A stretch of DNA of 64,000 bases from Pseudoduganella namucuonensis (GTDB taxonomy: Bacteria; Pseudomonadota; Gammaproteobacteria; Burkholderiales; Burkholderiaceae_D): the NCBI RefSeq assembly GCF_900116645.1, contig NZ_FPBO01000039.1:1-64000 (forward strand), given 5' to 3'. A program made the translations under genes and the position numbers. The notes beneath the pieces were generated by a model. The model had not been told where the DNA came from. It did not search any database and saw only the letters and a program-made list of their open reading frames with translations. Of this stretch, positions 13,610 through 36,017 are shown in pieces (position 1 is the first letter of the stretch; each line of letters opens with the position of its first letter).

Positions 13610-13610
13610 C

Positions 13611-14285
13611 ATGGCCACCGTAGTCGGCAACTGGGGCGGCGGCAATGTCTGGCGCGTCACCAGCGGCGTGTTCCCGTCCAACGCCTATTTCTGCGAGGCC
13701 GACGTGCCGGGCGGCGGCATCCTGATCGACGCCGGACTGGATGGCGCCACCATCGACGCCGAACTGTCCGAGCATGGCCTGCGGCCGCACGCGGTGTACT
13801 GCACCCATGGCCATTTCGACCACGCCGGCAGCGCCTCGCATTTCCAGAACAAGTACGGATGTGAAGTCTTTATCCACAAGGCGGACACGCGCATCCTGAA
13901 AGCGTCGAATTTCATGCTGATGGCCATCAAGATTCCCGCCAAAGTGACGTTGCCGCAGGTGACCTGGGTGGAATCGGGCTTCACCGCCGACATCGCGGGC
14001 CACACGCTGCGCTACGTGTCCGCGCCGGGCCACACGCCCGGCTCCTGCGTGCTGGAGATCGGCGACGCCTGGTTCACGGGCGACACGCTGTATGCCAAAG
14101 GCGTAGGCTTGTCCCACCTGCCGGGCGAGGACCACGAGCTGCTCAAGGAAAGCATCACGGCGCTGTGGCCGGATTTGATCGCCGGCCGCACCATCTACCC
14201 GGGCCACGGCGACACCGCCGACGGCGTCGCCGTACGAACGCTCAACGGCGCATTACTAACATTCATGGGGCTTGCCGCATCGTGA
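13611..14285 (+). CDS. MBL-fold hydrolase (glyoxalase II-like)
   Basis: 224 residues with the metal motif THGHFDHAGS (HxHxDH), then SAPGHTPGSCVLEIGD with the third His, FTGDTLY, and IYPGHGD with the fourth. The pattern is that of glyoxalase II-like thioesterases. It starts two bases after the reductase stop. In this cluster it could release or proofread acyl thioesters on the carrier protein. That role is inferred from context only. Confidence 0.8.
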   Translation: MATVVGNWGGGNVWRVTSGVFPSNAYFCEADVPGGGILIDAGLDGATIDAELSEHGLRPHAVYCTHGHFDHAGSASHFQNKYGCEVFIHKADTRILKASNFMLMAIKIPAKVTLPQVTWVESGFTADIAGHTLRYVSAPGHTPGSCVLEIGDAWFTGDTLYAKGVGLSHLPGEDHELLKESITALWPDLIAGRTIYPGHGDTADGVAVRTLNGALLTFMGLAAS

Positions 14286-15307: not shown

Positions 15308-15308
15308 C

Positions 15309-18388: not shown

Positions 18389-18620
18389 AGACGCACTGAA
18401 ACAAGTAATGGGCACCCTGCTGAACGTGGACCCGGCCAGCATCGGCCCGGACGCCAGCATGGACACCATCGAGAGCTGGGATTCGCTGCGCCATATGAAC
18501 CTGGTGCTGGCGCTGGAGGAGGAATTCAAGGTCTCGATTCCGGACGAGGACGCGGGCAACATCACCTCCTACCAGCTGATCAAGCTGGTGCTGGAAGACC
18601 TGCTCAAGGCCAAGGGCTGA
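18378..18620 (+). CDS. Acyl carrier protein paired with the FkbH-like enzyme
   Basis: 80 residues with the carrier signature ESWDSLRHMNLVLALEEEF; Ser of DSL (near 36) is the phosphopantetheine site. It overlaps the FkbH-like gene and is followed after seven bases by an AMP-dependent ligase. Small carriers beside FkbH genes receive the glyceryl unit, so this one is the likely partner, while the 98-residue carrier upstream may serve chain elongation. Confidence 0.9.
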   Translation: MLNEDALKQVMGTLLNVDPASIGPDASMDTIESWDSLRHMNLVLALEEEFKVSIPDEDAGNITSYQLIKLVLEDLLKAKG

Positions 18621-18627
18621 GGCGCAT

Positions 18628-20062: not shown

Positions 20063-21163
20063 CTATAGGGCGGCGCGCACCGCGCGCGCCACTTCCTCCG
20101 CCTGTTCCAGCGTCATCACCGGGGATATCGGCAAACTCAGCACCTCGCGGTGGATCGCCTCCGAGATCGGGAAGTCGCCCTCCTTGTAGCCCATGTGCGC
20201 GTAGGCCGGCTGCAGGTGCGGCGGAATGGGATAGTGCACGATGGTGCCTATGCCCTGGTCGGCCAGCTTCTTCGCCAGCGCGTCGCGTTGCGGATGGCGG
20301 ATCACGTACAGGTGCCACACCGGATCGGCCCACTCGGGCACCACCGGCAACACCAGGCCCGGAATGCCGGCCAGCCGCTGGTCGTACACGGCGGCGATGG
20401 CGCGGCGTTGGGCGTTGCCCTGGTCCAGCGTCTTCAGCTTCACGCTCAGCAGCGCCGCTTGCAGCTCGTCCAGGCGCGAATTGTAGCCCGCCACCTCGTT
20501 GTGGTACTTCACCTTGGAGCCGTAGTTGCGGTAGGTGCGGATCACGTCCGCCAGCTGGTCGTCGCTGGTGGTGACGGCGCCGCCGTCGCCCAGCGCGCCC
20601 AGGTTCTTGCCGGGGTAGAAGCTGAACGCGGCCGCGTCGCCCAGGCTGCCGGCCACCTTGCCGCGGCAGGTGGAGCCGTGCGCCTGCGCCGAGTCCTCGA
20701 TCACCTTCAGACCGTGGCGCCCGGCTATGGCGTTGATGGCGTCCATGTCGGCCGGCTGGCCGTACAGGTGCACCGGGATGATGGCCCTGGTGCGCGGCGT
20801 GATGGCCGCCTCGATCAGCGCCGGGTCGATATTGTAGGTCGCTTCCACCGGCTCCACCGGCACCGGCGTGGCGCCGCAGTGGCTCACCGCCAGCCAGGTG
20901 GCGACGAAGGTGTTGGACGGCACGATGACCTCGTCGCCGGGGCCGATGCCGTAGCCCTTCAGGATCAGGAAGATGGCGTCCAGGCCGTTGGCCACGCCGA
21001 TGCCGTGCTTGCTGCCGCTGTAGGCGGCGAATTCCGTTTCGAAGGCGGCGGTGGCGCCGCCCAGGATGTACCAGCCCGACTCCAGCACGCGCTTGAACGC
21101 GGCCTGCAGCTCGTCGGCTTGGCTCAGGTTGATGGCTTTGAGGTCGAGGAAGGGGACGGTCAT
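20063..21163 (-). CDS. DegT/DnrJ-family nucleotide-sugar aminotransferase (FdtB/QdtB-like)
   Basis: 366 residues of a PLP-dependent sugar transaminase. Recognised by the start [50 protein letters not shown], and [18 protein letters not shown] with the PLP-binding Lys, then [12 protein letters not shown]. It would convert a dTDP-3-keto-6-deoxyhexose into the 3-amino sugar (Fuc3N or Qui3N). I chose ATG 21163 because it overlaps the FdtA-like stop codon (ATGA) and gives the family N-terminus. Which isomer is made cannot be read from sequence. The dTDP-glucose synthesis genes (rmlA, rmlB) are not in the window. Confidence 0.9.
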
Positions 21164-21585
21164 GACTGGTCCTGGTCGTGTATCTTGTGGGCCGCGGCCA
21201 CGAATTCGTCGTAGTCGTGGTAGTAGTCGTTGGGGTCGTACATGGTCGAGGCCAGCACCAGGCACACGGCGCCGGACGAGAAGTTCTCCACCTCGCGCCA
21301 GGTCATGCCCGGCACGTACAGGCCGTAGTAGGAGCGGTTCAGCGAAATCTTCTTGCGGCCGTAGCCGTCGTCGACGATCACGTCGAAGCTGCCGGACATG
21401 GCGATGAACAGCTGCTGCAGCTCGATGTGGCCGTGGCCGGCGCGCGAGGAGCCGCCCGGCACGTCGTACAGGTAGTAGACGCGCTTGATGTCGAACGGCA
21501 CCTGCACCCCGCCCTCGATCACGGACAGGTTGCCGCGCGGGTCGCTGTATTTGGGCAGGTCGATCAGTTTGCAGGCGTCGAGCAT
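21160..21585 (-). CDS. dTDP-3,4-ketohexulose isomerase (FdtA/QdtA-like, WxcM family)
   Basis: A 141-residue cupin. The FdtA pattern is clear: [27 protein letters not shown], the paired His of [40 protein letters not shown] and [11 protein letters not shown]. FdtA/QdtA move the keto group of dTDP-4-keto-6-deoxyglucose from C4 to C3, just before the transaminase encoded next. The 4-base overlap with the transaminase gene supports a two-step pathway to a dTDP-3-amino-3,6-dideoxyhexose. Confidence 0.92.
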
Positions 21586-21595
21586 GGTCGCGTCC

Positions 21596-22477
21596 TTAGT
21601 TGGATTTCAGGGTCCGGGCGTAATCCTGGAAACGGGCTTGCGCCGGCGCCATCTGGGTGAACACCCCGGTCAGGCGCGCCGTCACGGCCACCACCTGCTC
21701 CTCCATGCCGCGCAGTTCGTCGTCGGTGATCATGCCCTCCTTGTGCGTCACCACCAGCAGGTCGATGTAGTCGGAGAAGCAGTTGCCGAAGTTCGGGTTG
21801 GAGGCCGGGTTGGAGTTCGACATCAGGCGCTGGTCGCGGCGGAAGTAGGTCAGTTCCTCGTCCACGTAGAAGGCGGCGCCGTCCTTCACCAGGTTGCAAT
21901 AGGCGATCACGTCGGCCAGGCCGAAGGTGAAGTCGTGGCCGCCCATGCAGAACAGGTCCTTCCAGCCGATGTCCCACAGCTTGTCGCGGCGGAACATGAT
22001 GGAGGTGAACTCGCCGATGAAGTTGCGCATGCCCAGCGCCATCGAGCGCTGCACCTGCAGGCCGGGCAGGCTGCCGCTGACGGTGTAGGGGCGGCGCGTC
22101 TCGATGCGCAGGTTGTCGGCGTCGATCACCTGGCTGGCCGAGAACACCAGCTGGATGGCCGGGTCCATGCTCATGCTGGCCACCATGCGCTCCACGCAGA
22201 ACGGGTGCAGGATGTCGTCGTCGTACAGCGGCTTGATGAAGTGGCCCTTGCCGGAGTAGAAGGCCGACATGACGTTCTTGTCGTTCATGTGCGGATTGCG
22301 CTGGTAGATCACCTGCGGGTACTTGGCGCAGATTTCCTTGATGGCCTCGGTCGGGCAGTTGTCGCTGACCAGGATCTCCAGGTGGGGGTACGATTGGCCG
22401 ATGGCCGACTTCACGCACTGCTCGAAGTGGCCGGGCTTGTACGACGGGATCACGATGCTGACGAGTGGGAAGGACAT
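21596..22477 (-). CDS. GT2-family glycosyltransferase
   Basis: 293 residues with the GT-A fold start PLVSIVIPSYKPGHFEQCV, LEILVSDNCPTE and a DxD-type metal motif in KPLYDDDILHP. A central acceptor region contains FRRDKLWDIGWKD and GGHDFTFGLAD. No membrane segment is apparent, so it is a cytosolic transferase. It lies ten bases before fdtA-like in transcription order and 16 bases after the SGNH gene. It probably adds a sugar to the glycan built by this cluster. Confidence 0.85.
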   Translation of the reverse strand: MSFPLVSIVIPSYKPGHFEQCVKSAIGQSYPHLEILVSDNCPTEAIKEICAKYPQVIYQRNPHMNDKNVMSAFYSGKGHFIKPLYDDDILHPFCVERMVASMSMDPAIQLVFSASQVIDADNLRIETRRPYTVSGSLPGLQVQRSMALGMRNFIGEFTSIMFRRDKLWDIGWKDLFCMGGHDFTFGLADVIAYCNLVKDGAAFYVDEELTYFRRDQRLMSNSNPASNPNFGNCFSDYIDLLVVTHKEGMITDDELRGMEEQVVAVTARLTGVFTQMAPAQARFQDYARTLKSN

Positions 22478-22493
22478 GGTTTTCCAGTGAGTT

Positions 22494-23630
22494 TTATCGG
22501 GTGGCGGCGTCCGCCGTGTCTTTTTTTCCGACCACGAACAGCAGGCCGACCAGGTCCAGCCGCGGTTCCGGCACGGGCGCGGGCGCCTGGCTGAAGCAGT
22601 CGAAGCTGGCCACCGGGCCGGCCGGGGCGGCCGGCGCCGGCACCGCCACCTCGAAGGCGGTGGGGCCGAAGTCGCGCACCAGCGCGTGGCTGAACAGCAG
22701 CGGCAGCGGCACGCAGGAATAGATGAAGGGCAGCGTGGCGGTGTCGGCGTGGCGCGTGCCCACCTCCACCGTGGCCGCGATGCCGGCGCCGGACAGCGTC
22801 AGCCGCAGGCGGTCGTGCTGGCGGTCCGACTTCAGGAACAGCGCCAGCGGGAACATCTCGCTGCTCAGCGCCAGGCTGGCGCCCGGATGCATGCGCAGGC
22901 AGTCCAGCTGCATCAGGCGGTTGCCCACGCGGGCCGGTTCGGCCGGTCCCTTGGCGAATTGCGCCAGGTTGGCGGCCGGCACGTACACCAGTTCCATGCC
23001 GGCGTGCGGCGACGACGCCAGCAGCCGTTGCGCGGTGACGGCCAGCGTCTCGGCCGGCGCGCCGCCGTTCCCCCGCGCCAGTTCCAGCAGGCGCGCGGCG
23101 ATGGCGGCGCCCACCAGCGCGGTGGCGTGCGGCGCGGCGTAGTGGGCCTCGTCGCGGTACAGCCAGGCCGGCTTGTTGCCCAGGAAGAGCGCCGCCAGCC
23201 ACTGGCGGATGTCGATCGCGTGCAGCCCCAGCGCGCGGAAGGCGGCGATCTGCATGTCGTAGAAGGGGCTGGGCTGGGCCGGCGAGAAATGGCGCTCCAT
23301 CGCGAACACCAGCGGCACCAGCACCGCGTTGGGATAGAGCTGCGCGGCGGCCTTGATCAGCAGGTACAGGCAAAGTTGCCAGGACTGGTCGCCCCGCGGG
23401 CGCGGCGCGAAGTGGCCGGCGTCGTTGATCGAGTACTCGTACAGGATGAAATCGTACTGGCCGGCGCGGTAGGTGTCGAACAGGCGGCCGATGGCGGCCA
23501 GGCTGGTGGTCGCGCCCACAGAGGCCTGGTCGACGTGGACCTCGGTGTGGCCTTGCAGCGACTGCTGCAGGTGGCTCACGTAGCCGTCCTTGAGCAGCGA
23601 GTTCGAACCGCCGATGATCAGTATTCTCAT
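22494..23630 (-). CDS. SGNH/GDSL-type esterase or acyltransferase
   Basis: 378 residues. The N-terminal half resembles SGNH hydrolases: block I GGSNSLLKDGYV, a SIND motif with the block III Asn-Asp (YEYSINDAGHF), and a block V-type RDEAHYA with Asp and His. The C-terminal 180 residues are beta-rich and unassigned. There is no signal peptide, so it is likely cytosolic. In glycan clusters such enzymes add or remove O-acyl groups, and here it sits between two glycosyltransferase genes. The nucleophile is Ser in GGSNS rather than GDS, so activity is plausible but not certain. Confidence 0.65.
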   Translation of the reverse strand: MRILIIGGSNSLLKDGYVSHLQQSLQGHTEVHVDQASVGATTSLAAIGRLFDTYRAGQYDFILYEYSINDAGHFAPRPRGDQSWQLCLYLLIKAAAQLYPNAVLVPLVFAMERHFSPAQPSPFYDMQIAAFRALGLHAIDIRQWLAALFLGNKPAWLYRDEAHYAAPHATALVGAAIAARLLELARGNGGAPAETLAVTAQRLLASSPHAGMELVYVPAANLAQFAKGPAEPARVGNRLMQLDCLRMHPGASLALSSEMFPLALFLKSDRQHDRLRLTLSGAGIAATVEVGTRHADTATLPFIYSCVPLPLLFSHALVRDFGPTAFEVAVPAPAAPAGPVASFDCFSQAPAPVPEPRLDLVGLLFVVGKKDTADAATR

Positions 23631-23650
23631 CAGTTACACAGCCTCCGCGC

Positions 23651-26600
23651 TCACGCCGACCGGGCGGCGATCAGGTATTGGCGCGGCAGCGCGTCCTCCA
23701 CCGCGACCTCGGGGTCGATGCCGGTGGCCTGCGCCATCAGGCGCAGCGCCGGCAGGTAGCGTTCGCGTTCCGGCTCGTCCAGGATGATGGAGGCGCCGCC
23801 GTGGATGGCGAAGCCGGCCTGCTGGAACATCTGCAGCATGGTGCCGCGGGTGAACAGGTGGCGGTCGCCCGGCGCCAAGGTGGTGCCGGTCTGGTAGCGC
23901 ATGTCGCCCGAGTTGATGCGCACTTGCGTGCTCCAGTGCTGGAAGTTGCGCACCGAGGCCACCACCATCGCGCCCGGCGGGCTGGCGGCGCGGATGCGTT
24001 GCAGCAGGGCCAGCGGGTCTTCCAGCTTTTCCAGCACGCCGTCCATCACCCACAGGTCGGCGCCGGCCGTGTGCGCGTCGCGCTGGGCGTCCGGCGCGGC
24101 GATGTCCTGCTGGTAGACGAAGTCGCAATGGGGGCGGGCCTGGTTGGCCAGCGCCAGGTCGCGCTCGACGCCGATGTAGTCGCAGATCGGGTTGCGCTCC
24201 TTGTAGGCCTTGGCGAAGGAACCGTCGCCGCAGCCCACCTCCACCACCTTCACGGCGCCGGCCGGCATCAGCGCCAGCAGCTGCTCGTTGACGTGGGTGG
24301 CCGCCGGCGCGTGGTAGTGGTAGCCGCCGGTGCGGATCACGGTGCCCTGCCAGTCGTGCTTGATGAACACGCGCTGCGAGCTCGATCCGAAATCATTCTT
24401 CACCCATTCCACGTGGCCCAGCAGGTCGCCGGAGCCGGCGTTCTGCAGCGCGATCATGGTCGGCAGCATGGGCGCGCCGTGCTTGATGGGGCGCGGCCAC
24501 TGGCGCATCACGTCGATGTTGCACAGCATGCAGGCCGGATGCAGGTAGCGGTAGCCGCCCACGTCCAGCGGCTGGCCCAGCTCGTTGACCTGCTGCACCC
24601 CGCCCACGCCGTACTGGCGCGGCCCCAGCGCCTCGTACAGCGACTCCAGGAAACCGCGGCGCAGGATCTCGACGTCGGAGTCCAGGAACAGCACGGGGCC
24701 GGTCAGGCCCAGGTTGTTGATGGCCCAGTTCATGCCGGGACCGTGGTGGATGTTGTAGCCGAAGGGGATGAACTGCACGTTGTCGTACTTGGCCACCACC
24801 TGGCCCACCTGCTCGGCCTGCGCCGGGTGCGAGCCGTCGATCACGTACACCGGGTTCGGGTAATGCTCGCGGAAGGTGCGCAGCAGCGCGTCGATCAGGT
24901 CGGGCGCGTTGTAGGAGACGGTGACGACGGGGATCTGCTCTATCTGCATGGGCTGGCCCTGGGGCGACGGGGTGGGGGCGCGCAGCTGCGGCCGCGCGGG
25001 TTTGACGACGGTTTCCAGCAGCGCCTCCATGTTGCGCACGAAGCGCGGGCTGTCGAACAGCGCGCAGGTGTAGCGGTTGTCCACCAGTTGCTGTTTCATC
25101 GCGGCGATGCGTTCCGGCGCGTTGGCCAGCTCCACCGCCTTGTCCTCGTAGTCCTGGAAATTGAAGGTCACCAGTTCCGGCAGGTTCACCGCGCGCAGCA
25201 GGCTGCCCGCCATGCGCGCCGAGAAGGTGTGGCCGGCGCAGGTCAGCAGCGGCAGGCCGGCCCACAGCGCGTCGCTGGCGGTGGTGCCGGCGTTGAACGG
25301 ATAGGTGTCCAGGAACAGGTCGGCCAGCTGGTAGCGCGCCAGGTATTCGTGCGGCACGGCGCGTCCGGCGAAGATCAGCCGCTCGCGCGCCACGCCCGCC
25401 TCCTCGGCGTAGCGCCACAGGTTGTCGCGCACCTCGTCGTAGTCCGCCACCAGCCACAGCACGCTGTTCGGCACGCGGCGCAGGATGTTCATCCACACGC
25501 CGAACACCTCGGGCGTGAACTTGAAGTTGTTGTTGAAGGAGCAGAACACGAAGGCGTCCGGCGGCAGCTTCACGCTGTCGCGCGTGGGGCAGGTGCCGAT
25601 GGCGCGCCGGCGGTCGTTGATCTGGAAGGTCTCCGGCAGGTGCAGCGGCTTTTCCGTGAAGTGCGCGGCCAGCTCCGGCGGAATCAGGAACTCGTCGGCC
25701 AGCACGTAGTCCACGCCGGGCAGGGCGGTGCTGCCGGGGAAGCCCAGGTAGGTCAGCTGCACGGGCGCCGAGCGGCAGGCCAGGATGTTGGGGCGCGCGC
25801 CCAGGGTCAGGCCGTGCAGGTCGACCAGGATGTCGATCTCCAGGCTGCGGATGGTGTGCGCGGCCTGCTCGTCGGTCATGCCGTCGATGCGGATGTAGTG
25901 GTCCATCGCCTTGACCACGCGGGCGCGGATGGGCGAGCCGTCCTCGCGGCTCCAGCTGAAGGCGTACACCTCGAACCTGGCGCGGTCGTGCAGCTCGTAC
26001 AGCTCGGCGGTGAGGATGGACACGGCGTGCGAGCAGAAGTCCGACGACAGGTAGCCGATGCGGATGCGCTCGTGGCCGTAGCCGAATTCGCCGGTCAGCG
26101 GCGCCACGTTGGCCTCGACCTTTTCCTCGACGAAGCGGCGCGCGGCGGCCAGCTGCTGGGCCGGATCGTCGGACGCGCTCAGCATCGCCAGCGCGGACGT
26201 GCCCTCCATCATCTTGGCCAGCGGGATGTGGGGCAGGCCCGCGTACACCGGCCATTTGCACTGCTTCTGGCGCAGGTGCACCCAGTGCGTCATCACGTTC
26301 GGCTGCTCGGGATCGATCATCAGGCTGCGCGCCAGGTAGTCCTCGGCGGCGGGGTACTGCTTGCGGATCTCGAGCAGGCGGCCCAGGTTGTTCAGGGTTT
26401 GCAGGTACAGCGGCTTGTTGCTGTCCGGCGCCGGCAGCACGGCCGGCGTCAGGATGTCGCGCCAGGTGGCCAGGGCCTCGTCCGGGCGGCCCAGCCGCTC
26501 CAGCAGGGTGCCCAGGTTCAGGCGCGCCTCGACGAAGCCGGGGTGCTGCGCGCTGGCGGCGCGGTACATCTCCTCGGCGCCCGCGTCGTCGCCCACGGCG

Positions 26601-26845
26601 GACAGGGTGACCGCCAGGTTGAACCGGGCCGCGTAGGCCAGCGGGCTCGGACTTTGTTCCAACCAAAGACGGTACAGCGCGACCGCCCCCTTGGCGTTGC
26701 CGGCGCCCTGCAACTGCGCGGCGGCGTTGAACAGGTCGGTGATCGGCATGTCGCCGCGCGCGGCCCAGGCCAGCGCGGCCGCCGCATCAGGCGCGGCCGC
26801 TGCCGGCGCGGAAGGGGCTGACGGAAGTTTTGCTTGAACGGTCAT
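23651..26845 (-). CDS. TPR-GT41 (SPINDLY/OGT-like)-GT2-methyltransferase fusion
   Basis: A 1064-residue multidomain enzyme. Residues about 30-210 are TPR-like repeats (YAARFNLAVTLSAVGDDAGA, EARLNLGTLLERLGRPDEAL). About 250-610 is the GT41 O-GlcNAc-transferase-like domain (RIGYLSSDFCSHAV, VDLHGLTLGARPNI, QLTYLGFPGSTALPGVDY, DLFLDTYPFNAGTTASDALW). About 630-850 is a GT2-like domain (VVTVSYNAPDLIDALL, FLDSDVEIL with DxD). About 865-1040 is a class I methyltransferase (VVEVGCGDGSFAKAY). GT41 enzymes transfer sugar to Ser/Thr of proteins. It lies 220 bases downstream of the giant Thr/Ser repeat gene in the same direction, which makes that protein the obvious candidate substrate. Flagellin is the main alternative. 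Confidence 0.9.
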   Translation of the reverse strand: MTVQAKLPSAPSAPAAAAPDAAAALAWAARGDMPITDLFNAAAQLQGAGNAKGAVALYRLWLEQSPSPLAYAARFNLAVTLSAVGDDAGAEEMYRAASAQHPGFVEARLNLGTLLERLGRPDEALATWRDILTPAVLPAPDSNKPLYLQTLNNLGRLLEIRKQYPAAEDYLARSLMIDPEQPNVMTHWVHLRQKQCKWPVYAGLPHIPLAKMMEGTSALAMLSASDDPAQQLAAARRFVEEKVEANVAPLTGEFGYGHERIRIGYLSSDFCSHAVSILTAELYELHDRARFEVYAFSWSREDGSPIRARVVKAMDHYIRIDGMTDEQAAHTIRSLEIDILVDLHGLTLGARPNILACRSAPVQLTYLGFPGSTALPGVDYVLADEFLIPPELAAHFTEKPLHLPETFQINDRRRAIGTCPTRDSVKLPPDAFVFCSFNNNFKFTPEVFGVWMNILRRVPNSVLWLVADYDEVRDNLWRYAEEAGVARERLIFAGRAVPHEYLARYQLADLFLDTYPFNAGTTASDALWAGLPLLTCAGHTFSARMAGSLLRAVNLPELVTFNFQDYEDKAVELANAPERIAAMKQQLVDNRYTCALFDSPRFVRNMEALLETVVKPARPQLRAPTPSPQGQPMQIEQIPVVTVSYNAPDLIDALLRTFREHYPNPVYVIDGSHPAQAEQVGQVVAKYDNVQFIPFGYNIHHGPGMNWAINNLGLTGPVLFLDSDVEILRRGFLESLYEALGPRQYGVGGVQQVNELGQPLDVGGYRYLHPACMLCNIDVMRQWPRPIKHGAPMLPTMIALQNAGSGDLLGHVEWVKNDFGSSSQRVFIKHDWQGTVIRTGGYHYHAPAATHVNEQLLALMPAGAVKVVEVGCGDGSFAKAYKERNPICDYIGVERDLALANQARPHCDFVYQQDIAAPDAQRDAHTAGADLWVMDGVLEKLEDPLALLQRIRAASPPGAMVVASVRNFQHWSTQVRINSGDMRYQTGTTLAPGDRHLFTRGTMLQMFQQAGFAIHGGASIILDEPERERYLPALRLMAQATGIDPEVAVEDALPRQYLIAARSA

Positions 26846-26999
26846 GGCTTTTCATTCGGTATGGTCGATCCGATGGGCAAGCGGTTCTGCCCGTCGGAAA
26901 GACGGTTCAGTCGGCCATAAGGGCAGGCGTTATCATACCTTCTTGTCGCGAAAGCGGGGGCAACAAATGCTGCGCTCATAGGGGAGCGCGACGGGCAAA

Positions 27000-27062
27000 C
27001 AACGGCGGCGCGGACGACGGCGCACGGCGGCGGGACCGTCGGCCCCGCGCCGTCCGCCGTCG
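27000..27062 (-). terminator. Possible GC-rich hairpin after the giant gene
   Basis: An imperfect GC-rich inverted repeat lies just past the stop codon in the 220-base gap before the GT41 fusion gene, followed on the - strand by ttgttt. The pairing is imperfect and the T-run weak, so partial read-through into the glycosylation genes is possible. Confidence 0.3.
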
Positions 27063-27065
27063 GTG

Positions 27066-30000
27066 TCACTTGTCCGGCATCGCCAGCCAGCCCTGCTGGC
27101 GCTGGCCCGCGTTGCGCCAGCGGTCGGCCGGGTCGGCCGCGCCGTCGGAACCGCCCAGCGGCGCGTTGGCGTTGTAGCGGTTCAGCTCGGTGGCCAGCGC
27201 TTGCGCCTGTTGCGGCAGGGCCGTCCGGCCCGGCGCGTCCGGCAGCGCGGCGCCGCCGGCCGTGGCCGCGCCGTCGCCGGCGTAGCTGGCCAGTGCCTGG
27301 CTCAGTCCGCCAACTCGCTGCTGCAGCGTGGGCGCCTTGCCGTGCACCGCGAACCAGACGTCGGCGCTGGCGTGCGTGCCGCCGGCGGTGTCGGTCCAGG
27401 TCGAGGACAGGCCGATCCTGTTGCCGTTCTGTACCGCGTCGCTGGCGCTGGCGCCGGTGGCGATCGAGGCGATGCCCAGCGCGTCCAGCGTGTTCAGCTC
27501 GCCGTCCTGGCTGACGCCGTCGCTATTGCCGTCCACCCACACGCGCAGCTGGCCGAAGGCCTCGTCGGCGGCGTTGATGCGGCCGTCGCCGTTGCTGTCG
27601 AGTTGGGCCAGCGCGGCGTAGCCGTCCGCCGCCTTGGCGCCGCCGCCCAGTTCCGTCGCACCGCCGAACAGCTCGCCGCCGTCGTTGATGCGGCCGTCGC
27701 CGTTGCGGTCCAGGGCCAGCAGGCCGTCGGTCGGCGCCACCCAGCCGGTGTGCACCGCCGCGCCGCGCGCGTCGATGTCGAAGGCGACGCCGTCGCGCAT
27801 CGACAGCGTCGAGACGCCGTCGCCGTTCAAGTCCAGCACCAGCGGCGTCGCGTAGTACAGCGAGCCCGGATCCAGCGCCATGGTCTGGTCGACCGACAGC
27901 GCCGCCGCCTGCGACGCGCTGAAGGCGGCCACCTGGGCCACGCTCAGCGCGGCCAGGTCGGCCGTTTCCAGCGCGGCCATCTGCGTGGTGCTCAGCGCCG
28001 CCAGGCCGGCCGTGCTCAGCACCGGCATCTGGGTTTCCGTCAGCGCGGCGATCTGGGTGGCGCTCAGCGCCACCACCAGGCTGGTCTTCAGGTTGCCGAC
28101 CTGGGTGTTGGTGAGGTTCGCGATCTGGTCCGCCGTCAGGTAGCCGATCTGCGTGGCGCTGAAGGCGTTCAACTGGCTGGTCGACAGCGCGCCCAGCTGG
28201 TCGGTGGTGAAGGACGGGATGTGGTCCACCGTCAGCGCGGCGATCTGCGAGTTCTTCAGCGCGGCGACCTGCGTGTCGAGCAAGGTCGCGGCCTGCGTGG
28301 CCGACAGCGCGTCGATCTGCGTGTTGCTCAGCGCCTGGATCTGCGCGGTGGTCAGCGCCACCAGTTGTTCGGTCAGCAGCACGGCCAACTGGTCGACGCT
28401 GATCGAGGTGATCTGGCTCAGCTTGATGGCGGCGACCTGGTCCACGGTCAGCGCCTGCAGCTGGGCGTTGCTCAGCGCCGGCAGTTGCGCCGTGCTCAGG
28501 TAGCCGATCTGGGCCGTCGTCAGCGAGGCGATCTGGGTGGTGCCCAGGGCCAGCATCTGGTCGGCCGTCATCGCGTTGATCTGGCTGTTGGTCAGCGCCG
28601 CCACCTGCACGGTGGCCAGCGCCGGCACCTGGCTCAGCGCCAGGCCCTGGATCTGGGCCGTGGTCAGGTAGGCCACCGATTGCGTGCTCAGCGCCACCAA
28701 CTGGTCGGTGCTGAGCGCGGCCAGGGTGTCGAGCGTGATGGCGCGGGTCTGCGCGGTGGTCAGCGCGGCCAGTTGCGTGGTGGTCACGGCGGCGATGCGG
28801 GCCGTGTCCAGCGCGGCGATGCCGGCCGTGCCGATGGCGCGGAACTGGTCGGTGCCCATCGCGGCGGCCTGTTCGGTCGTGAACGCGATGTAGGCGCCGC
28901 TGCTCAGTTGCGAGATCTGGCGCGTGGTCAAGGCCGCCACGTCCGCCGTTTCCAGCGCCGCCTGCTGGCTGGCGCTCAGGTTGTTGAGCTGGTTCGAGGT
29001 CAGCGCCGCGGCCTGGGTGGTGGTCAGCGCGGCGATGTGGTCGGAGCTCAGGCCGGAATTGATCTGGTCCAGGCTGAGCGCGGCCACGCCGGCGGTCGAC
29101 AGCGCGGCGAACTGGTCGGTGCCCAGCGCGGCCAGCTGGTCGTTGGCCAGGGCCGCGACCTGCTGGGTGGCCAGCGCGGCCACGTCGGCCGTTTCCAGCG
29201 CCGCCACCTGGGCCGTGGCCAGGCTGCTCAGCTGGGCGGTGCCCAGCGCGCGCACTTGCGCCGTGGTCAGCGCGGCGATATGGTCGAGCGTCAGGCCGGT
29301 GGACAGCTGATCGACGGTCAGGGCCGAGATGGCCGAGGTCGACAGCGCGCCCACCTGCGCCGTGGTCAGGCCGGCCAGCTGCTCACTGCCCAGCGCGGTG
29401 ATCTGGTTCGAGCGCAGCGCGTTCAGGTCGGCCGTTTCCAGCACGCCCAGCTGGGCGGCGCTCAGCGCCGCCAGTTGCGCCGTGGTCAGCACGGTCATCT
29501 GGTGGGTGGTCAGCGAGGTCAACTGGTCGTCGGTCAGCGCCGCGATCTGGTCGCTGTTCAGCCCTGGCAGCTGCGCGCTGCCGAGCGCGGCGATCAGGGT
29601 GGTGCTGAGGCCGGCGAACACGGCGGCGTTCAGGCCGCCGATCTGCGCGCTCTTCAGCGCGCGGAAGTCGGCCGTGTCCAGCGCGTTCAGCTGGTCGTTG
29701 TCGAAGGCGCCCAGCTGGTCGGAGCTCAGCGCCATCACCTGGTTGCTGGTGAGGGCGGCGATCTGGGTGGTGGCCAGGGTGGCCACGCGCTCGGTGGCCA
29801 GCGTCGACACCTGGGCCGTGGTCAGCGCGGCCACGTCCTCGGTGGCCAGCGCGTTCAGCTGGCTGCCCAGCAGGTAGGAGGTCTGCAGCGTGCTCAGCGC
29901 GGCGATCTGCTGCGTGGTCAGCGCCACCAGCTGGTCGTCGCCCAGCGCGGCGATCTGGTCGCTGTTCAGGCCCGGCAGCTGGCTGGTGGTCAGCGCGGCG

Positions 30001-33000
30001 ACCAGGGCGGTGCCCAGCGCGCCGACGCGGGTGGCGCTCAGCGCGGCCAGCTGGCTGCTCTTGAGCGCGCGGAAGTCGGCGCTGCCGATGGCCTCCACCT
30101 GCGCGTCGTCCAGCGCGGCGATCTGCGCCGTGGCGAGGGCGGCCACGTGGTTGCTGGTCAGCGCGGCCATCTGGTCGGTGGTCAGCCAGCCGATGGCGTC
30201 GGTGCCGATGGCGGCCAGCTGCGCGGTGCCCAGAGCGGCGATGTCGGCGGTTTCGATGGCGGCCAGCTGGTTGCCCAGCAGGTAGCCGATCTGCGCCGTG
30301 CCCAGGCTGGCGACCTGGCTGGTGGACAGCGCCACCAACTGGTCGTCGCCCAGCGCCTGCAGTTGCTCGCTGTTCAGGCCGGACAACTGGCTGGTGGACA
30401 GCGCGGCGATCAGGTCCGAGCTCAGCGCGGTGATGACGGCGCCCGGCAGCACGGCGATCTGGGTGGCTTTCAGCGCGCGGAAGTCGGCGGTCTCGATCGC
30501 GTTCAGCTGCGACACGTCCATCTGCGAAATCTGCGTCGTGGTCAGCGCGGCGACCTGGTTGCTGCTCAGCGCGATGACCTGGTCGGTGGTCAGGTAGCCG
30601 ATGCGGTCGGTGGCGATGGCGGCGATCTGCTGCGTGCCCATCACGGCGATGTCGTCGGTTTCCAGCGCGATCAGCTGGTTGGCGTCCAGGGAGCCCATCT
30701 GCGCGGTGGTCAGCGCGGCGGCCTGGGCCGTCGTGAGCGCCACCACGTGGTCGGTGGTCAGCGCCAGGATCTGGTCGCTATTGAAGTAGGACAGTTGCAG
30801 CGCGCCCAGGTTTTGCAGCTGGTTGGTGCTCAGCGCGGTGATCTGGGACACGCTCAGCGAGGAGCTGGCGCCGGTGCGCAGCACCAGCAGGTCGTCCAGT
30901 TCCATGGCCTCGAGCTGCTCGTCGGTCAGGGCCTGCACTTGCGCGGTGGTCAGCGCGGCGGCCTGCGCCGTGGTCAGCGCGATCACGTGGTCCGTGCTCA
31001 GCAGCGGGATCTGGTCCAGCGACAGGCCGGCGATCTGGCTGGTGCGCAACTCGGCGAAGTCGGCGGTTTCGATGGCGGCCAGCTGGTTGGCGCTCAGCGC
31101 GTTCAGCTGGAACGCGCCCAGCACCGAGAACTGGTCGGACGTCAGCGCGACGATCTGGTCGGTGGTGAGCGCGGCCATGTGGTCGGTGGACAGCGCCGGG
31201 ATCTGCGCGCTGGTCAGGCTGGCGATCTGGTCGGTGGTGAAGGCGGCCACCTGGTCGTCGTTCAGCCAGGCGATCTGGCCGGCGCGCAGGCCCGCCAGGT
31301 CGTCCGTCTGCAGCGCCTGGATCTGCGTGGTGGTCAGCGCGCCCAGCTGGAGGCTGGACAGCGCGGCGAACTGTACGCTGGTGAGCGCGCCCAGCTGGTC
31401 GCTGTTCAGGCTGGCCATCTGGTCCACCGTCAGTGCGGAGATCTGGCGCGTCTTCAGCGCGGCCAGATCGGCCGTTTCCATCGCGGCCAGCTGGTCGGTG
31501 CTGAGCGTGGCCATCTGCGCCACGGTCAGGCTGTTGAGCTGGTCGCTGCCCAGCGCGACGATCTGGTCGGTGGTCAGGCTCGGCAACTGGGCCGTGGTCA
31601 GCGCGGCCAGCTGGCTGGTTTTCATCGTGCCCAGCTGGTCGGTGGTGATGGCGGCCAGTTGGTTGCCGTCCAGTACCACCAGCTGGGTGTTCTTCAGCGC
31701 GGCCAGGTCGGCCGTTTCCAGCGCGGCGATCTGGTCGGTGGTGAGCGCGGCGATCTGCAGGGTGGCCAGGCCGGCGGCCTGGGCCGTCGTCAGCGCCATG
31801 ATCTGGTCGGTGCTCAATTGCGCGAACTGGCCGGCGTCCAGCGCGGCCAGGGTGGCCACTTTCAGGGCCGCCAGGTCGTCGGTCTGCAGTGCGGCCAGTT
31901 GGCCGGCAGAGAGGTTGCCCAGCTGGCTGGCGGTCAGCGCGCTGGCTTGCAGCGTGGTCAGCGCGATGATGTGGTCGGTGCTCAGTTGGCCCAGCTGGTC
32001 GACCGTGAAGGCCGCCACCTGGCGCGTGCTCAGCGTGACGAAGTCGTCCGTTTCCAGCGCGGCCAGTTGCGCGTCGGTCAGCGCGCGGATCTGGCGCGTG
32101 CCCAGGCCGGCCACTTGCAGCGTGGTCAGCGCCACGATGTGGTCGGTGCTCAGGTTGGACACCTGGTCGCTGGTGAGCGCGGCCAGCTGCGCCGTTTTCA
32201 GGGTCTGCCACTGGTCGGTGGTCAGCGCGGCGAGCTGGTCGGTGCCCAGCGCGGTGATCTGGTTGGTCTTCAGCGCGCCCAGGTCGTCCGTTTCCAGCGC
32301 CTGCAGCTGCGCGGTGCCCAGCGCGGCGATCTGGCGCGAGGTCAGCGCGGCGATCTGGGTGGTGGTCAGCGCCACCAGGTGGGCCGTGTCCAGGTTGGCG
32401 ATCTGCAGCGTGGTCAGCGCGGTGATGTGGCGGGTCTGCAGCGTGGCGAACTGGGCGGTGTCCATCGCCGCCAGCTGCGCCGTGCCCAGGTAGGGGATTT
32501 GCGCCAGCGTCAGGCCGTTCAGCTGGCGCGACGTGATGGCGACCACCTGGTCCGAGCCCAGCGCGGCCAGATGGTCGCTGTTCAGGGCGGCGAACTGCAC
32601 CGAGGTCAGCGCCTGCAGCTGGTCGGTGTTGACGGCGGCCAGCTGCGCGGTGGTCAGCGCGGCGATCTGGTTGGTTTTCAGCGCGGCCACGTCGGCCGTC
32701 TCCAGCGCCAGCACCTGGTCGGTGGTCAGCGCCACCAGCTGGCGGGTGGTCAGCGCCATCGCCTGGGCGCTGGTCAGCGCGGCGATGTGGTCGGTGCTCA
32801 GCTGCGACACCTGCTCGGTGGTGAGCGCGGTGATCTGCTGGGTTTTGAGGCTGGCGAAGTCGCCCGTCTCGAGCGCGGCCAGCTGCGCGCTCGTCAGCGC
32901 GGCGATCTGCTGGCTGCGCAGGTTGCTCGCTTGCAGCGTGCCCAGCGCGACGATCTGGTCGGTGGTCAGCGCGCGCACCTGGGCGCTGTTCAAGGCGCCC

Positions 33001-36000
33001 AGTTGCAGCGTGCTCAGCGCCTGCAGCTGGTCGGTGTTCAGGGCGGCCACGTTGTCGCTGGCCAGCGCCGCGAAGTGCTGGGTGCGCATGGCGGCCAGGT
33101 CGGCCGTTTCCAGCGCCAGCACCTGGGTGCTGGTCAGGGCGGCCACGTGGCGCGTGCCCAGCAGCGAGGCCTGGGACGTGGTCAGCGCCACGATCTGGTC
33201 GGTGGTGACGGCGGCGATCTGCTCGTTGGTCAGCGCGGCCAGCTGGTTGGAGCGCAGCGCGGCGAAGTCGTCGGTTTCCAGCGCGGCCACCTGGCCGGTC
33301 AGCAGGGCGGCGATCTGGTGGCTGCGCAGGCCGCCGATCTGCAGCGTGGTCAGCGCGGCGACCTGGTCGGTGGTGAGCGCGCGCAGCTGGTCGGTCAGCA
33401 GGGCGCCGACCTGCTGGGTGGTGAACGCCTGCAGCTGGTCGGTGTTCAGGGCGGCCAGGTTGGCGGTGGTGAAGGCGGTGACGTGGTGGGTGCGCAGCGC
33501 GGCCAGGTCGGCCGTCTCCAGCGCGCGCGCCTGGTCGCTGCCCAGGGCGGCGATGTGGCGCGTGGCCAGTTGCGAGGCCTGGGAGGTGGTCAGCGCGACG
33601 ATCTGGTCGGTGGTCAGCACGGCCACCTGCTCGCTGGCCAGCGCGTTCAACTGGTGGGTGCGCAGCACGGCGAAGTCGTCCGTCTCCAGCACGACCAGCT
33701 GGCTGGTGGTCAGCGAGGAAACCTGGCGCGTGTTCAAGCCGATGATCTGCTGCGTCGTCAGCGCCACGATCTGGTCCGTGGTGAGCGCGGCGATCTGCAG
33801 CGTGGCCAGCTGGTTCAGCTGGCCGGACGACAGCGCCGTCAACTGGCTGGAGCTCAGCGTGGCGATGACGTTGCTGCCCAGCGCGTTGATTTGATGGCTC
33901 TTCAGCGCGGCGAAGTCCACGCTTTCCATCGCGGCCAGCTGCTGGATGCTGAACGCGCCCAGTTGCAGCGTGGTCAGCGCGCCGGTCTGGGCGGTGGTCA
34001 ACGCGACGATCTGGTCGGTGCTCAGGTTGGCGATCTGGGTGGTGGACAGCGCGGCGATCTGCGCGGTGCGCAGCGAGGCGAAGTCCAGCGTTTCCAGCGC
34101 GTTGACCTGCTCGGTGAGCAGGGCGTTGATCTGGTTGGTTTTCAGCGCGGCCAGTTGCAGCGTGCTGAGCGACACCAGCTGGTCGCTGGTGAGGGCGTTC
34201 AGCTGCGCCGAGTTCAGCGCGGTCATTTGCAGCGTGCTCAGCAGCGCGAGCTGGTCGGTGCTCATGGCGGCGATGGCGGCGCTGGTGAGGTTGCCGATTT
34301 GCTGGGTCTTCAGTCCGCCGACGGTGCCGGTGGACAGCGCGTTCAGCTGGGCGCTGCCCAGCGCGGCGATCTGCGCGCTGCTCAGCGCGATGGTCTGGCT
34401 GGATTTCAGCGCGGCGATCTGCGTGGTGGACAGCGCCAGCAGCTGGGCCGTGCCGAGGGCGCCGACCTGGGTCGATTTCAGCGCGGCCAGGTCCTCGGTC
34501 TCCAGCGCGGCGATCTGGGCGGTGGAGAGCGAGGCGAGCTGGCGCGTGGACAGGCTGTAGGCTTGCAGCGTGCTCAGCGCGGCGATCTGGGTGCTGTCCA
34601 GCGCGCCCAGCTGGGCGGTGGTCAGCGCGCCCACTTGCAGCGTGGTCAGCAGGGCCAGCTGGGTGGTGCCCAGCGAGGCGATGTTGGCGGTCGCCAGCGC
34701 GGCGATCTGGTGCGTCTTCAGCGTGGCCTGCGTGGCGGCCGACAGCGCGGCCAGCTGGGCCGAGGTGAGCGCGGCGATCTGCGCGGTGCCCAGGCCCACG
34801 GCCTGGGCGCTCTTCAGCGCGGCCAGCTGGGCGGTGCCCAACGTGGCGACCTGGGCGGTGCCCAGCGCGGCCACCTGGTTCGATTTCAGCGCGGCGAAGT
34901 CGGCCGTTTCCAGGCCGTCCAGCTGGCTGCTGCTCAGCAGCGAGATCTGGCGCGAGGTCAGCGCCATCACTTGCGCGCTGCTCAGGTTGGCGATCTGGGT
35001 GGTGCTCAGCGCGGCCAGCTGGCGCGTGGCCAGGTTGGCGATGTGCAAGGTGGTCAGCGCGGCCACGTGGGCGGCGTCCAGCGTGGCCAGGGCGGCGGTG
35101 CCGATGGCGGCCACCTGGCTGGTCTTCATCGCGGCCAGGTCGGCCGTGTCCAGCGCGGCCAGCTGCGCCGAGTTCAGCGCGGCCACCTGGTTGCTCGTCA
35201 TGTTGGCGGCCTGGGCGGCCGTCAGCGCGGCGATCTGGGCGGTGCCCAGCAGGGCCACCTGGGCGGTCGCGATGGCGGCGATCTGGTTGGTTTTCAGCGC
35301 CACGAAATGGGCGGTGTCCAGCGCGGCGATCTGGTCGCTGCCCAGCGCGGCCATCTGGGCGCTGGTCAGGGCCTGGGTTTGCGCGGTGGTCAGCGCGGCG
35401 ATCTGGGCGGTCGACAGCCGGCTCAGCTGGGCGGTGGCGAGCTGGGCGATCTGCGCGGTGCGCAGCGCGGCCACGTCGGCCGTTTCCAGCGCGTTGAGCT
35501 GCTCGCTGCCCATGGCGTTCAGTTGGCGCGAGCTCAGCGCGGCGGCCTGCTGGGTGGTCAGCGCGGCCAGCTGGGCGGCGCCCAGGCTGGTCAGCAGCGC
35601 CGTGCTCAGCGTGGACACCTGCAGCGTGGTCAGCGCGGCCAGGTCGTTGGTCTGCAGCGAGGCCAGCTGGCTGGTGCTCAGGTAGCCCAATTGCGCGGTG
35701 GTCAGCGCGGCGATCTGCGCCGAGCCCAGGCCCAGGTCGATCTGCGCCGTCGTCAGCGACGGGATTTGCCCGCTGTTGAGCGCCTGCACCTGGCGCGTGG
35801 TCAGGCCCGCCACCTGGTTGGTGGTCATGACGGGCACCATCGCCGTGCTCAGCGCGCGGATATGCTGGGTGCCGAGCGCGGCGATCTGCGAGGCCGTGAA
35901 TGCCCTCAACTGTTCGCTGGTGATGGACGCGATCTCCGCTGTTGTCAGCGAAGCAATTTGCGCCGTCGAGAGCGAGGCGATTTGAGTGGTCGAAAGGCTT

Positions 36001-36017
36001 GGTAGTATAGAGGGCAT
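27066..36017 (-). CDS. Giant octapeptide-repeat surface protein with calcium-binding C-terminus
   Basis: 2983 residues from ATG 36017 (ribosome site caggaga nine bases upstream). The N-terminus MPSILPSLSTTQ enters the repeats at once, with no Sec signal peptide. About 340 octads of consensus [AG]-L-[ST]-[ST]-x-[QD]-[ILV]-x run to about residue 2715. Acidic octads such as ETADVAAL followed by K/R-T recur every 7 or 10 octads. The C-terminal 270 residues carry EF-hand-like loops (DLNGDGVSTL, DRNGDGRIND, DSNGDGRINA, DGNSDGVSQD) and end QGWLAMPDK. Lack of a signal peptide, a calcium-loop module and a C-terminal end motif point to type I secretion. Thr and Ser make up about a quarter of the array, giving several hundred hydroxyl sites. 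The GT41 fusion gene follows. The octad array matches no family I recognise; adhesin function is inferred. Confidence 0.88.
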   Translation of the reverse strand: MPSILPSLSTTQIASLSTAQIASLTTAEIASITSEQLRAFTASQIAALGTQHIRALSTAMVPVMTTNQVAGLTTRQVQALNSGQIPSLTTAQIDLGLGSAQIAALTTAQLGYLSTSQLASLQTNDLAALTTLQVSTLSTALLTSLGAAQLAALTTQQAAALSSRQLNAMGSEQLNALETADVAALRTAQIAQLATAQLSRLSTAQIAALTTAQTQALTSAQMAALGSDQIAALDTAHFVALKTNQIAAIATAQVALLGTAQIAALTAAQAANMTSNQVAALNSAQLAALDTADLAAMKTSQVAAIGTAALATLDAAHVAALTTLHIANLATRQLAALSTTQIANLSSAQVMALTSRQISLLSSSQLDGLETADFAALKSNQVAALGTAQVATLGTAQLAALKSAQAVGLGTAQIAALTSAQLAALSAATQATLKTHQIAALATANIASLGTTQLALLTTLQVGALTTAQLGALDSTQIAALSTLQAYSLSTRQLASLSTAQIAALETEDLAALKSTQVGALGTAQLLALSTTQIAALKSSQTIALSSAQIAALGSAQLNALSTGTVGGLKTQQIGNLTSAAIAAMSTDQLALLSTLQMTALNSAQLNALTSDQLVSLSTLQLAALKTNQINALLTEQVNALETLDFASLRTAQIAALSTTQIANLSTDQIVALTTAQTGALTTLQLGAFSIQQLAAMESVDFAALKSHQINALGSNVIATLSSSQLTALSSGQLNQLATLQIAALTTDQIVALTTQQIIGLNTRQVSSLTTSQLVVLETDDFAVLRTHQLNALASEQVAVLTTDQIVALTTSQASQLATRHIAALGSDQARALETADLAALRTHHVTAFTTANLAALNTDQLQAFTTQQVGALLTDQLRALTTDQVAALTTLQIGGLRSHQIAALLTGQVAALETDDFAALRSNQLAALTNEQIAAVTTDQIVALTTSQASLLGTRHVAALTSTQVLALETADLAAMRTQHFAALASDNVAALNTDQLQALSTLQLGALNSAQVRALTTDQIVALGTLQASNLRSQQIAALTSAQLAALETGDFASLKTQQITALTTEQVSQLSTDHIAALTSAQAMALTTRQLVALTTDQVLALETADVAALKTNQIAALTTAQLAAVNTDQLQALTSVQFAALNSDHLAALGSDQVVAITSRQLNGLTLAQIPYLGTAQLAAMDTAQFATLQTRHITALTTLQIANLDTAHLVALTTTQIAALTSRQIAALGTAQLQALETDDLGALKTNQITALGTDQLAALTTDQWQTLKTAQLAALTSDQVSNLSTDHIVALTTLQVAGLGTRQIRALTDAQLAALETDDFVTLSTRQVAAFTVDQLGQLSTDHIIALTTLQASALTASQLGNLSAGQLAALQTDDLAALKVATLAALDAGQFAQLSTDQIMALTTAQAAGLATLQIAALTTDQIAALETADLAALKNTQLVVLDGNQLAAITTDQLGTMKTSQLAALTTAQLPSLTTDQIVALGSDQLNSLTVAQMATLSTDQLAAMETADLAALKTRQISALTVDQMASLNSDQLGALTSVQFAALSSLQLGALTTTQIQALQTDDLAGLRAGQIAWLNDDQVAAFTTDQIASLTSAQIPALSTDHMAALTTDQIVALTSDQFSVLGAFQLNALSANQLAAIETADFAELRTSQIAGLSLDQIPLLSTDHVIALTTAQAAALTTAQVQALTDEQLEAMELDDLLVLRTGASSSLSVSQITALSTNQLQNLGALQLSYFNSDQILALTTDHVVALTTAQAAALTTAQMGSLDANQLIALETDDIAVMGTQQIAAIATDRIGYLTTDQVIALSSNQVAALTTTQISQMDVSQLNAIETADFRALKATQIAVLPGAVITALSSDLIAALSTSQLSGLNSEQLQALGDDQLVALSTSQVASLGTAQIGYLLGNQLAAIETADIAALGTAQLAAIGTDAIGWLTTDQMAALTSNHVAALATAQIAALDDAQVEAIGSADFRALKSSQLAALSATRVGALGTALVAALTTSQLPGLNSDQIAALGDDQLVALTTQQIAALSTLQTSYLLGSQLNALATEDVAALTTAQVSTLATERVATLATTQIAALTSNQVMALSSDQLGAFDNDQLNALDTADFRALKSAQIGGLNAAVFAGLSTTLIAALGSAQLPGLNSDQIAALTDDQLTSLTTHQMTVLTTAQLAALSAAQLGVLETADLNALRSNQITALGSEQLAGLTTAQVGALSTSAISALTVDQLSTGLTLDHIAALTTAQVRALGTAQLSSLATAQVAALETADVAALATQQVAALANDQLAALGTDQFAALSTAGVAALSLDQINSGLSSDHIAALTTTQAAALTSNQLNNLSASQQAALETADVAALTTRQISQLSSGAYIAFTTEQAAAMGTDQFRAIGTAGIAALDTARIAAVTTTQLAALTTAQTRAITLDTLAALSTDQLVALSTQSVAYLTTAQIQGLALSQVPALATVQVAALTNSQINAMTADQMLALGTTQIASLTTAQIGYLSTAQLPALSNAQLQALTVDQVAAIKLSQITSISVDQLAVLLTEQLVALTTAQIQALSNTQIDALSATQAATLLDTQVAALKNSQIAALTVDHIPSFTTDQLGALSTSQLNAFSATQIGYLTADQIANLTNTQVGNLKTSLVVALSATQIAALTETQMPVLSTAGLAALSTTQMAALETADLAALSVAQVAAFSASQAAALSVDQTMALDPGSLYYATPLVLDLNGDGVSTLSMRDGVAFDIDARGAAVHTGWVAPTDGLLALDRNGDGRINDGGELFGGATELGGGAKAADGYAALAQLDSNGDGRINAADEAFGQLRVWVDGNSDGVSQDGELNTLDALGIASIATGASASDAVQNGNRIGLSSTWTDTAGGTHASADVWFAVHGKAPTLQQRVGGLSQALASYAGDGAATAGGAALPDAPGRTALPQQAQALATELNRYNANAPLGGSDGAADPADRWRNAGQRQQGWLAMPDK
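27870..35999. repeat. About 8.1 kb array of 24-bp coding repeats
   Basis: The DNA repeats with a strict 24-base period over about 340 units, diverged in sequence but conserved in register, with a few insertions (for example the TGLTLDHI and NSGLSSDHI segments, where two extra residues shift phase). A superimposed period of 168 or 240 bases comes from the acidic octads. Because the unit is a multiple of three and GC-rich, other frames and the opposite strand also stay open over many kilobases. Confidence 0.9.

Follow-up and report, generated by a model that had tools for sequence, protein, structure and literature searches.

What does a glycosyltransferase of family 41 (GT41) modify when its gene lies directly beside that of a giant protein rich in threonine and serine? 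The question is raised by a locus of Pseudoduganella namucuonensis (contig NZ_FPBO01000039.1, positions 1 to 64,000; this whole stretch of 64,000 nucleotides is the window), in which a protein built of octads of the ALTTAQ repeat family is followed, in the same direction, by a fusion enzyme that joins tetratricopeptide repeats (TPR) to a GT41 domain, and by sugar genes. A first-pass annotation of this DNA took the octads to be the acceptor of the enzyme. The ALTTAQ-GT41 pair is real and recurrent, and, on balance, we favor the view that the GT41 enzyme serves the ALTTAQ protein as its partner glycosyltransferase, with the octads as acceptor.

The octad protein and the fusion enzyme

The six genes of the locus all lie on the minus strand and, upon recomputation, their identity, order, direction and coordinates, the 2983 residues of the repeat protein and the gaps of 220, 20, 16, 10 and -4 bases from the octad protein to FdtB (the FdtB start overlaps FdtA by 4 bases) agreed with the first-pass annotation, the assignment of the SGNH gene being weak.

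27066..36017 (ATG at 36017), minus strand: ALTTAQ octad protein (ALT2), 2983 amino acids (aa); PF20080, octad fit, AlphaFold2
27066..27845, minus strand: C-terminal region of ALT2, a Ca2+ domain resembling the FrpC self-processing module (SPM); PDB 6sjw, E 3e-37
23651..26845, minus strand: TPR-GT41-GT2-like-methyltransferase fusion, 1064 aa; PF13844, TPR, Methyltransf_23
22494..23630, minus strand: SGNH/GDSL-like protein, 378 aa, weak assignment; PF13472 20.9 bits, cut-off 32.9
21596..22477, minus strand: GT2 glycosyltransferase, 293 aa; PF00535 46.7 bits
21160..21585, minus strand: FdtA-type sugar 3,4-ketoisomerase, 141 aa; PF05523 179 bits
20063..21163 (start 21163), minus strand: FdtB-type sugar aminotransferase, 366 aa; PF01041 (DegT/DnrJ) 426 bits

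A terminator-like hairpin (26989-26972) lies inside the 220-base gap; such hairpins are barely more numerous here than in shuffled sequence (10 found versus a mean of 7.2, standard deviation 2.7).

ALT2 belongs to the ALTTAQ repeat family (PF20080, 1657 bits, cut-off 26.4). Its octads follow the pattern A-L-x-T-x-Q-x-A and span residue 7 to about 2720, and because they begin at residue 7, a classical signal peptide would not fit in front of them. An eight-residue fit yielded 360 segments, the final 21 of which fall in the non-repeat C-terminus, with 339 consecutive spacings of exactly 8; the strongest period, 136 aa, equals 17 octads and so is a super-period over the octads. A chance origin of the repeat is rejected by this fit and by the count of octad pairs (124 versus 0 in a single composition shuffle). 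The several hundred Thr/Ser claimed at first pass amount to 389 Thr and 233 Ser, with no Cys; among the 360 fitted segments, Ser/Thr occupies octad position 3 in 50% and position 4 in 78%. AlphaFold2 modeled residues 671-942 (272 residues; alignment A2, 14 rows) with a mean confidence (pLDDT) of 94.7 as 33 predicted short helices, one per octad. The octad profile matched HeliScrew4 (PDB 9zem) with an E-value of 2e-26, and the best PDB matches in a fold search with the model were mesothelins, weak and local (E 2.9e-5, TM 0.28). The repeat family and its fold are already known (PF20080, 9zem).

In the fusion enzyme, the GT41 domain (PF13844, 274 bits) is combined with TPR, a methyltransferase domain (Methyltransf_23, 49.7 bits) and a GT2 part that scores 20.0 bits, below the cut-off of 23.3, and 27.1 bits in a relative. 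Two residues, H273 and K442, align with H218 and K388 of xcOGT, which we take to be the catalytic residues of that enzyme, and are invariant across the 9 rows of alignment A1, in keeping with membership in GT41. The NCBIfam model for protein N-glucosyltransferases (NF049992) gave 24.2 bits, far under its cut-off of 1000, and on this ground N-glycosylation of the HMW1C type was rejected. GT41 enzymes of known function glycosylate proteins, at Ser/Thr. Much larger GT41 proteins occur near ALTTAQ giants in another family, f47, namely, one of 3767 residues with several GT41 domains among TPR arrays (L093:251-11554) and one of 2505 residues with several GT41 matches (L102:161-7678).

Recurrence of the ALTTAQ-GT41 pair

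In a sample of 145 genomes of the family, the present one included (GT41 threshold E <= 1e-50), 46 carry GT41 and 20 carry ALTTAQ, every ALTTAQ genome having GT41 as well (hypergeometric 3e-12, uncorrected for kinship). In a draw of 398 genomes from the phylum, ALTTAQ was present in 20, GT41 in 129 and both in 18 of the 20 (hypergeometric 7e-8). In 13 of the 20 family genomes, no more than 6 kb separates the two genes (G000, which is the present genome, G144, G089, G133, G058, G134, G069, G037, G087, G047, G081, G108 and G122; the evidence from G087 is a short fragment at the end of a contig). Adjacency was not seen in G040, G113, G120, G001, G019, G027 and G065, several of which are split into many contigs; in G001, assembled as a single contig, the two genes are 0.5 Mb apart.

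Scanning with the GT41 alignment gave 79 named loci. Of these, 35 hold an ALTTAQ gene (34 under a stricter rule), as compared with about 1.2% of the window's genome that lies no farther than 10 kb from an ALTTAQ gene; because the 79 loci, which partly overlap the family genomes, were chosen by GT41, they give no estimate of how often ALTTAQ genes are accompanied by GT41. The 35 include Duganella, Noviherbaspirillum, Sapientia, Pseudomonas, Azospirillum, Roseomonas, Rhodobacter and a Geobacteraceae metagenome-assembled genome (MAG). The pair spans alpha-, beta- and gammaproteobacteria as well as some MAGs of Geobacteraceae type, and direct neighbors occur also in more distant genomes of the phylum. 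The closest named relatives of the present GT41 are mostly from Duganella, and the lineage lies near Duganella/Massilia. Operon-like gaps are frequent; one of them, from a single-contig genome of the same class (L089), measures 84 bases. An estimate of how often ALTTAQ genes have GT41 comes from another family, f51, in which ALTTAQ is present in 48 of 297 genomes, with GT41 within 6 kb in at least 24 of the 48; with one more genome added (G337), GT41 was found in 35 of the 49 ALTTAQ genomes tested.

When adjacency is mapped onto a FastTree phylogeny of 155 GT41s, it shows clustering, with 22 changes versus 52 in shuffles and at least 16 changes forced; this turnover is overstated because contig ends were scored as 'no'. 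The 22 changes led us to reject a single ALTTAQ-specific GT41 clade. A general association of the ALTTAQ-less GT41s with some other giant repeat protein was likewise discarded upon screening 32 loci for self-repetition, which brought up only a different long repeat protein with an 80-residue period (L166), a short one on the minus strand (L207) and, in L184, its ALTTAQ. A second GT41 is present in some relatives (L041, L042).

The proposed acceptor, donor and route of export

Recurrent co-occurrence in genomes (20 of 20) and adjacency (13 of 20) with GT41 favor the reading of the octads as acceptor, in which we place moderate confidence. If GT41 acts on the octads, Ser/Thr would be expected to be retained where GT41 is present. 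In f51, the fraction of Ser/Thr at position 4 was 0.80 in ALTTAQ proteins with GT41 within 6 kb (28 proteins, 12 genera), 0.68 where GT41 lies elsewhere in the genome (15 proteins, 7 genera) and 0.46 in GT41-less genomes (12 proteins, 6 genera), with p 1e-6 per protein and p 1e-4 for genus means. At position 3, the same three groups are flat (0.78, 0.80 and 0.78), and because only position 4 tracks GT41, position 3 looks structural and position 4 looks like the acceptor. The test drew on 11 of the 14 GT41-less and 31 of the 35 GT41-bearing ALTTAQ genomes of f51, of which 10 and 30 contributed (L104, from G337, L256 and L258 held no qualifying repeat open reading frame (ORF)); the idea itself came from 9zem and from an earlier comparison that already held one GT41-less protein (L105), which is included in the counts.

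Further genes of the window that could serve export and donor synthesis lie on the plus strand:

28..1692, plus strand: ALTTAQ protein (ALT1), C-terminal 554 aa of a gene truncated by the contig edge; PF20080 239 bits, SPM-like motif
1819..3963, plus strand: HlyB-type permease/ATPase of a type I secretion system (T1SS), with a C39-like domain; TIGR01846 629 bits (best model; below cut-off 725.55)
3936..5297, plus strand: HlyD-type T1SS adaptor; TIGR01843 336.8 bits, cut-off 208.65
10991..19968, plus strand: candidate acyl-sugar cassette; gene set, domain matches

An ALTTAQ fragment at the end of another contig (C63:142964-144401) and that at the window start read one toward and the other away from the gap; the two are probably one gene split by assembly, with C63 as its possible N-terminal part.

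The FdtA family gene and the DegT-type aminotransferase gene stand side by side, as would befit an FdtA/FdtB pathway; enzymes of these types make dTDP-3-amino-3,6-dideoxyhexoses. FdtA was found in 8 of the 35 named GT41 loci with ALTTAQ and in 5 of the 44 without it. FdtA/FdtB is therefore an optional addition and no constant part of the pair, so what recurs of the neighborhood first described is ALTTAQ with GT41, at the level of genomes. The cassette comprises, in this order, a methyltransferase, a FabG-like short-chain dehydrogenase/reductase (SDR; ketoacyl reductase), a metallo-beta-lactamase-type (MBL) hydrolase, ketoacyl synthase III (KAS III), a MaoC-SDR protein, a 629-residue open stretch (16499-18388, plus strand) without Pfam matches at E <= 1e-4, an acyl carrier protein (ACP; 18378-18620) and an AMP-ligase. 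In Duganella flavida and D. sacchari (L133, L135), blocks 73-90% identical to it stand next to GT41 genes. By gene set, it resembles the viosamine island of Pseudomonas syringae, in which genes for a methyltransferase, KAS III, a ketoacyl reductase and ACP serve an acylated amino sugar on flagellin (PMC3927599), and it is so far a candidate for a cassette of this kind. Next to the ALTTAQ-GT41 pair in f51, a gene for UDP-galactopyranose mutase was seen twice (L226:9591-10781 and L224:14589-15815), which suggests a galactofuranose donor in that family.

With regard to export, the match to 6sjw covers residues 66-231 of the last 324 of ALT2. The FrpC module is a Ca2+-folding domain of type I-secreted proteins (PMC7078468). 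The residue before its conserved Pro is Thr in both ALT2 and ALT1, in place of the scissile Asp, and Thr or Ser in all 30 proteins inspected, so clip-and-link activity is not expected. The C-termini of ALT2 and ALT1 contain no GGxGxD nonapeptide repeats of the RTX type, and in many ALTTAQ proteins of other groups, which end in or near octads, no SPM-like motif was seen. The HlyB and HlyD genes (1819-5297) adjoin ALT1, as would befit a type I substrate, and are about 22 kb from ALT2; HlyD homologs occur in 25 of 134 ALTTAQ loci. Judging from the sequence, a surface-fiber role would fit the T1SS genes and the SPM-like domain.

Taken together, these genes suggest the following scheme. The TPR arm would bind the new ALTTAQ chain in the cytoplasm, and the GT41 domain would add sugars to octad Thr/Ser (O-glycosylation) ahead of export; the fused and neighboring GT2 and methyltransferase parts might extend or cap the glycan. 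In this lineage, FdtA/FdtB and the KAS III/ACP/reductase/methyltransferase cassette could supply an acylated 3-amino-3,6-dideoxyhexose donor. The glycoprotein would exit most likely via the HlyB/HlyD type I system at the window start and fold outside with Ca2+ through the SPM-like domain; it would form a rod with one short helix per octad and act as a surface or flagellum-associated fiber.

Several observations weigh against this reading. The position-4 effect estimated by phylogenetic generalized least squares is +0.24 (p 0.008) at lambda 0 and +0.18 (p 0.17) at the fitted lambda of 1; on an rpoB tree of 29 of these genomes (G802, lacking an rpoB match, was left out), the GT41 state needs only 2 changes; the signal comes mostly from one clade; within-genome protein pairs agree in 7 of 9 cases (p 0.16); and GT41-near proteins in two genomes (G492, 0.36, and G261, 0.44) contradict the trend. 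Since significance is lost once phylogeny is taken into account, the Ser/Thr at position 4 do not, in our view, prove where the acceptor site is, and we keep them as a lead. In f51, GT41 is absent from 14 of the 49 ALTTAQ genomes (G337 included). The present genome has four or five ALTTAQ genes, a single one of which adjoins the only GT41 found, so adjacency is weaker when counted per gene. In a single-contig genome of the same genus (G106), a 60%-identical GT41 lies beside a NUDIX gene and no ALTTAQ was detected at E <= 1e-6. No ALTTAQ-GT41 fusion was found among 172 GT41 ORFs, and gene fusion was dropped as evidence of partnership. HlyD homologs are commoner in the GT41-only loci (23 of 71) than in the ALTTAQ loci, two sets that overlap in part and are not independent, and GT41-ABC-HlyD operons of the Roseateles/Rubrivivax group (L165-L168, L170, L176, L180, L186-L188, L190, L191 and L196) show no ALTTAQ within about 10 kb. 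Finally, flagellin is encoded in all 40 genomes checked (38 with ALTTAQ, 2 with GT41 only), so genome content is no evidence against flagellin as acceptor.

Flagellin might be a second or main acceptor. GT41 could be a flagellin glycosyltransferase like FlmG, the TPR and GT-B enzyme described from Caulobacter crescentus (PMC7591256), with ALTTAQ merely sharing flagellar or secretion neighborhoods. Flagellar genes do occur in 16 of the 134 ALTTAQ loci and in 6 of the 71 GT41-only loci, GT41 lies 0.7 kb from flagellin in L047, and the acyl-sugar cassette resembles that for modified viosamine (mVio) on flagellin. Nevertheless, we consider this explanation rather unlikely because ALTTAQ is found near GT41 (35 of 79 named loci) far more often than flagellar genes are, because all 20 ALTTAQ genomes of the family carry GT41, and because none of the eight flagellin-domain matches of the present genome is on the window's contig (C10).

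Alternatively, GT41 might act in the cytoplasm as an O-glycosyltransferase on exported surface proteins in general, modifying both flagellins and ALTTAQ. The single GT41 of the present genome coexists with several ALTTAQ and several flagellin-domain genes, and one of its ALTTAQ genes starts 77 bases after FliR (Bac_export_1), convergent with FlgK and with a flagellin-N-domain gene that, judging by its place, is FlgL-like; in L118 and L119, too, an ALTTAQ gene follows FliR. In f51, the gene order is flagellin, ALTTAQ, GT41, UDP-galactopyranose mutase (GLF), flagellin in L226 and FlgI...FliP, ALTTAQ, GT41, mutase, flagellin in L224. The second GT41 of some relatives argues against a shared enzyme, which appears decidedly unlikely to us. 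The FliR-adjacent ALTTAQ gene, on contig C64 of the present genome (L077:10023-18591 and L079:4813-8073), encodes 2543 residues.

That the glycan genes build a polysaccharide or lipopolysaccharide part and ALTTAQ is an unmodified fiber linked to them only by a shared surface island is very improbable: polysaccharide loci often contain FdtA, FdtB, GT2 and SGNH genes, and FdtA occurs also beside GT41 without ALTTAQ, but GT41 enzymes of known function act on proteins and the linkage is to GT41 itself, whether other sugar genes are present or not.

With the octads as the favored acceptor, a broader and quite tentative possibility is that ALTTAQ proteins are widespread periodic glycoprotein rods with one or two outward Ser/Thr per octad, position 4 being the main site, which a partner GT41 would coat with sugars in the cytoplasm, ahead of type I or flagellar export; some of them, those after FliR or between flagellins, might form an undescribed glycosylated flagellum-associated structure. 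The recurrence of the pair in many proteobacteria suggests a widespread sugar-coated surface or flagellum-linked fiber. GT41 is common in bacteria (129 of the 398 genomes drawn from the phylum), and, to our knowledge, few acceptors of bacterial GT41 enzymes have been established. If our proposal is correct, a partner that recurs and presents acceptor sites in a regular lattice of eight residues would provide a testable substrate for many orphan GT41s and a simple peptide-level system for studying the recognition of repeats by a TPR-GT41 enzyme, and would point to a possible function of the ALTTAQ repeat family.

Comparison with known systems

Taken singly, the parts of the system are of known kinds: the enzyme is a GT41, the repeat is a Pfam family whose fold has been solved, and the secretion genes are those of a T1SS. 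In our literature searches (open-licence PMC papers), we found neither a description of the ALTTAQ-GT41 pair nor a paper on the ALTTAQ repeat or HeliScrew, so the novelty suggested in the first-pass annotation would apply to the combination as a partner pair and does not extend to the repeat, the fold and the enzyme family. The sheath glycoprotein of magnetotactic bacteria was considered as a parallel, and no link was established. HeliScrew4 (9zem; the name is from the PDB table) is made of LTxxQIAA-type octads with Thr/Ser at position 3, as in the natural ALTTAQ proteins; its position 4 is mostly Pro, whereas the natural proteins have Thr/Ser there. The C-terminal domain of the octad protein resembles the FrpC module (6sjw), with the scissile Asp replaced by Thr/Ser.

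The serine-rich repeat adhesins with their accessory Sec system (PMC6973325) are Gram-positive proteins with another export route and other enzymes. With them, ALTTAQ proteins share Ser/Thr-rich repeats and, if our proposal holds, O-glycosylation; unlike in these adhesins, the octads are predicted to fold into helices. HMW1C, itself of GT41, and the HMW1 adhesin (PMC3012730, PMC3983070) likewise combine a glycosyltransferase with a giant secreted adhesin but differ in N-linkage and two-partner secretion. The viosamine island (PMC3927599) shares with the present window genes for a methyltransferase, KAS III, a ketoacyl reductase, ACP and an aminotransferase; here, the cassette lies beside FdtA/FdtB and ALTTAQ-GT41 and has extra MBL, MaoC-SDR and ligase genes. 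FlmG (PMC7591256) is a soluble protein with TPR and glycosyltransferase domains that acts on flagellin while this is still in the cytoplasm, ahead of export. It uses flagellin as acceptor and pseudaminic acid as donor, whereas here the usual neighbor is the ALTTAQ giant and the donor genes are of the Fdt type, with UDP-galactopyranose mutase in two f51 loci.

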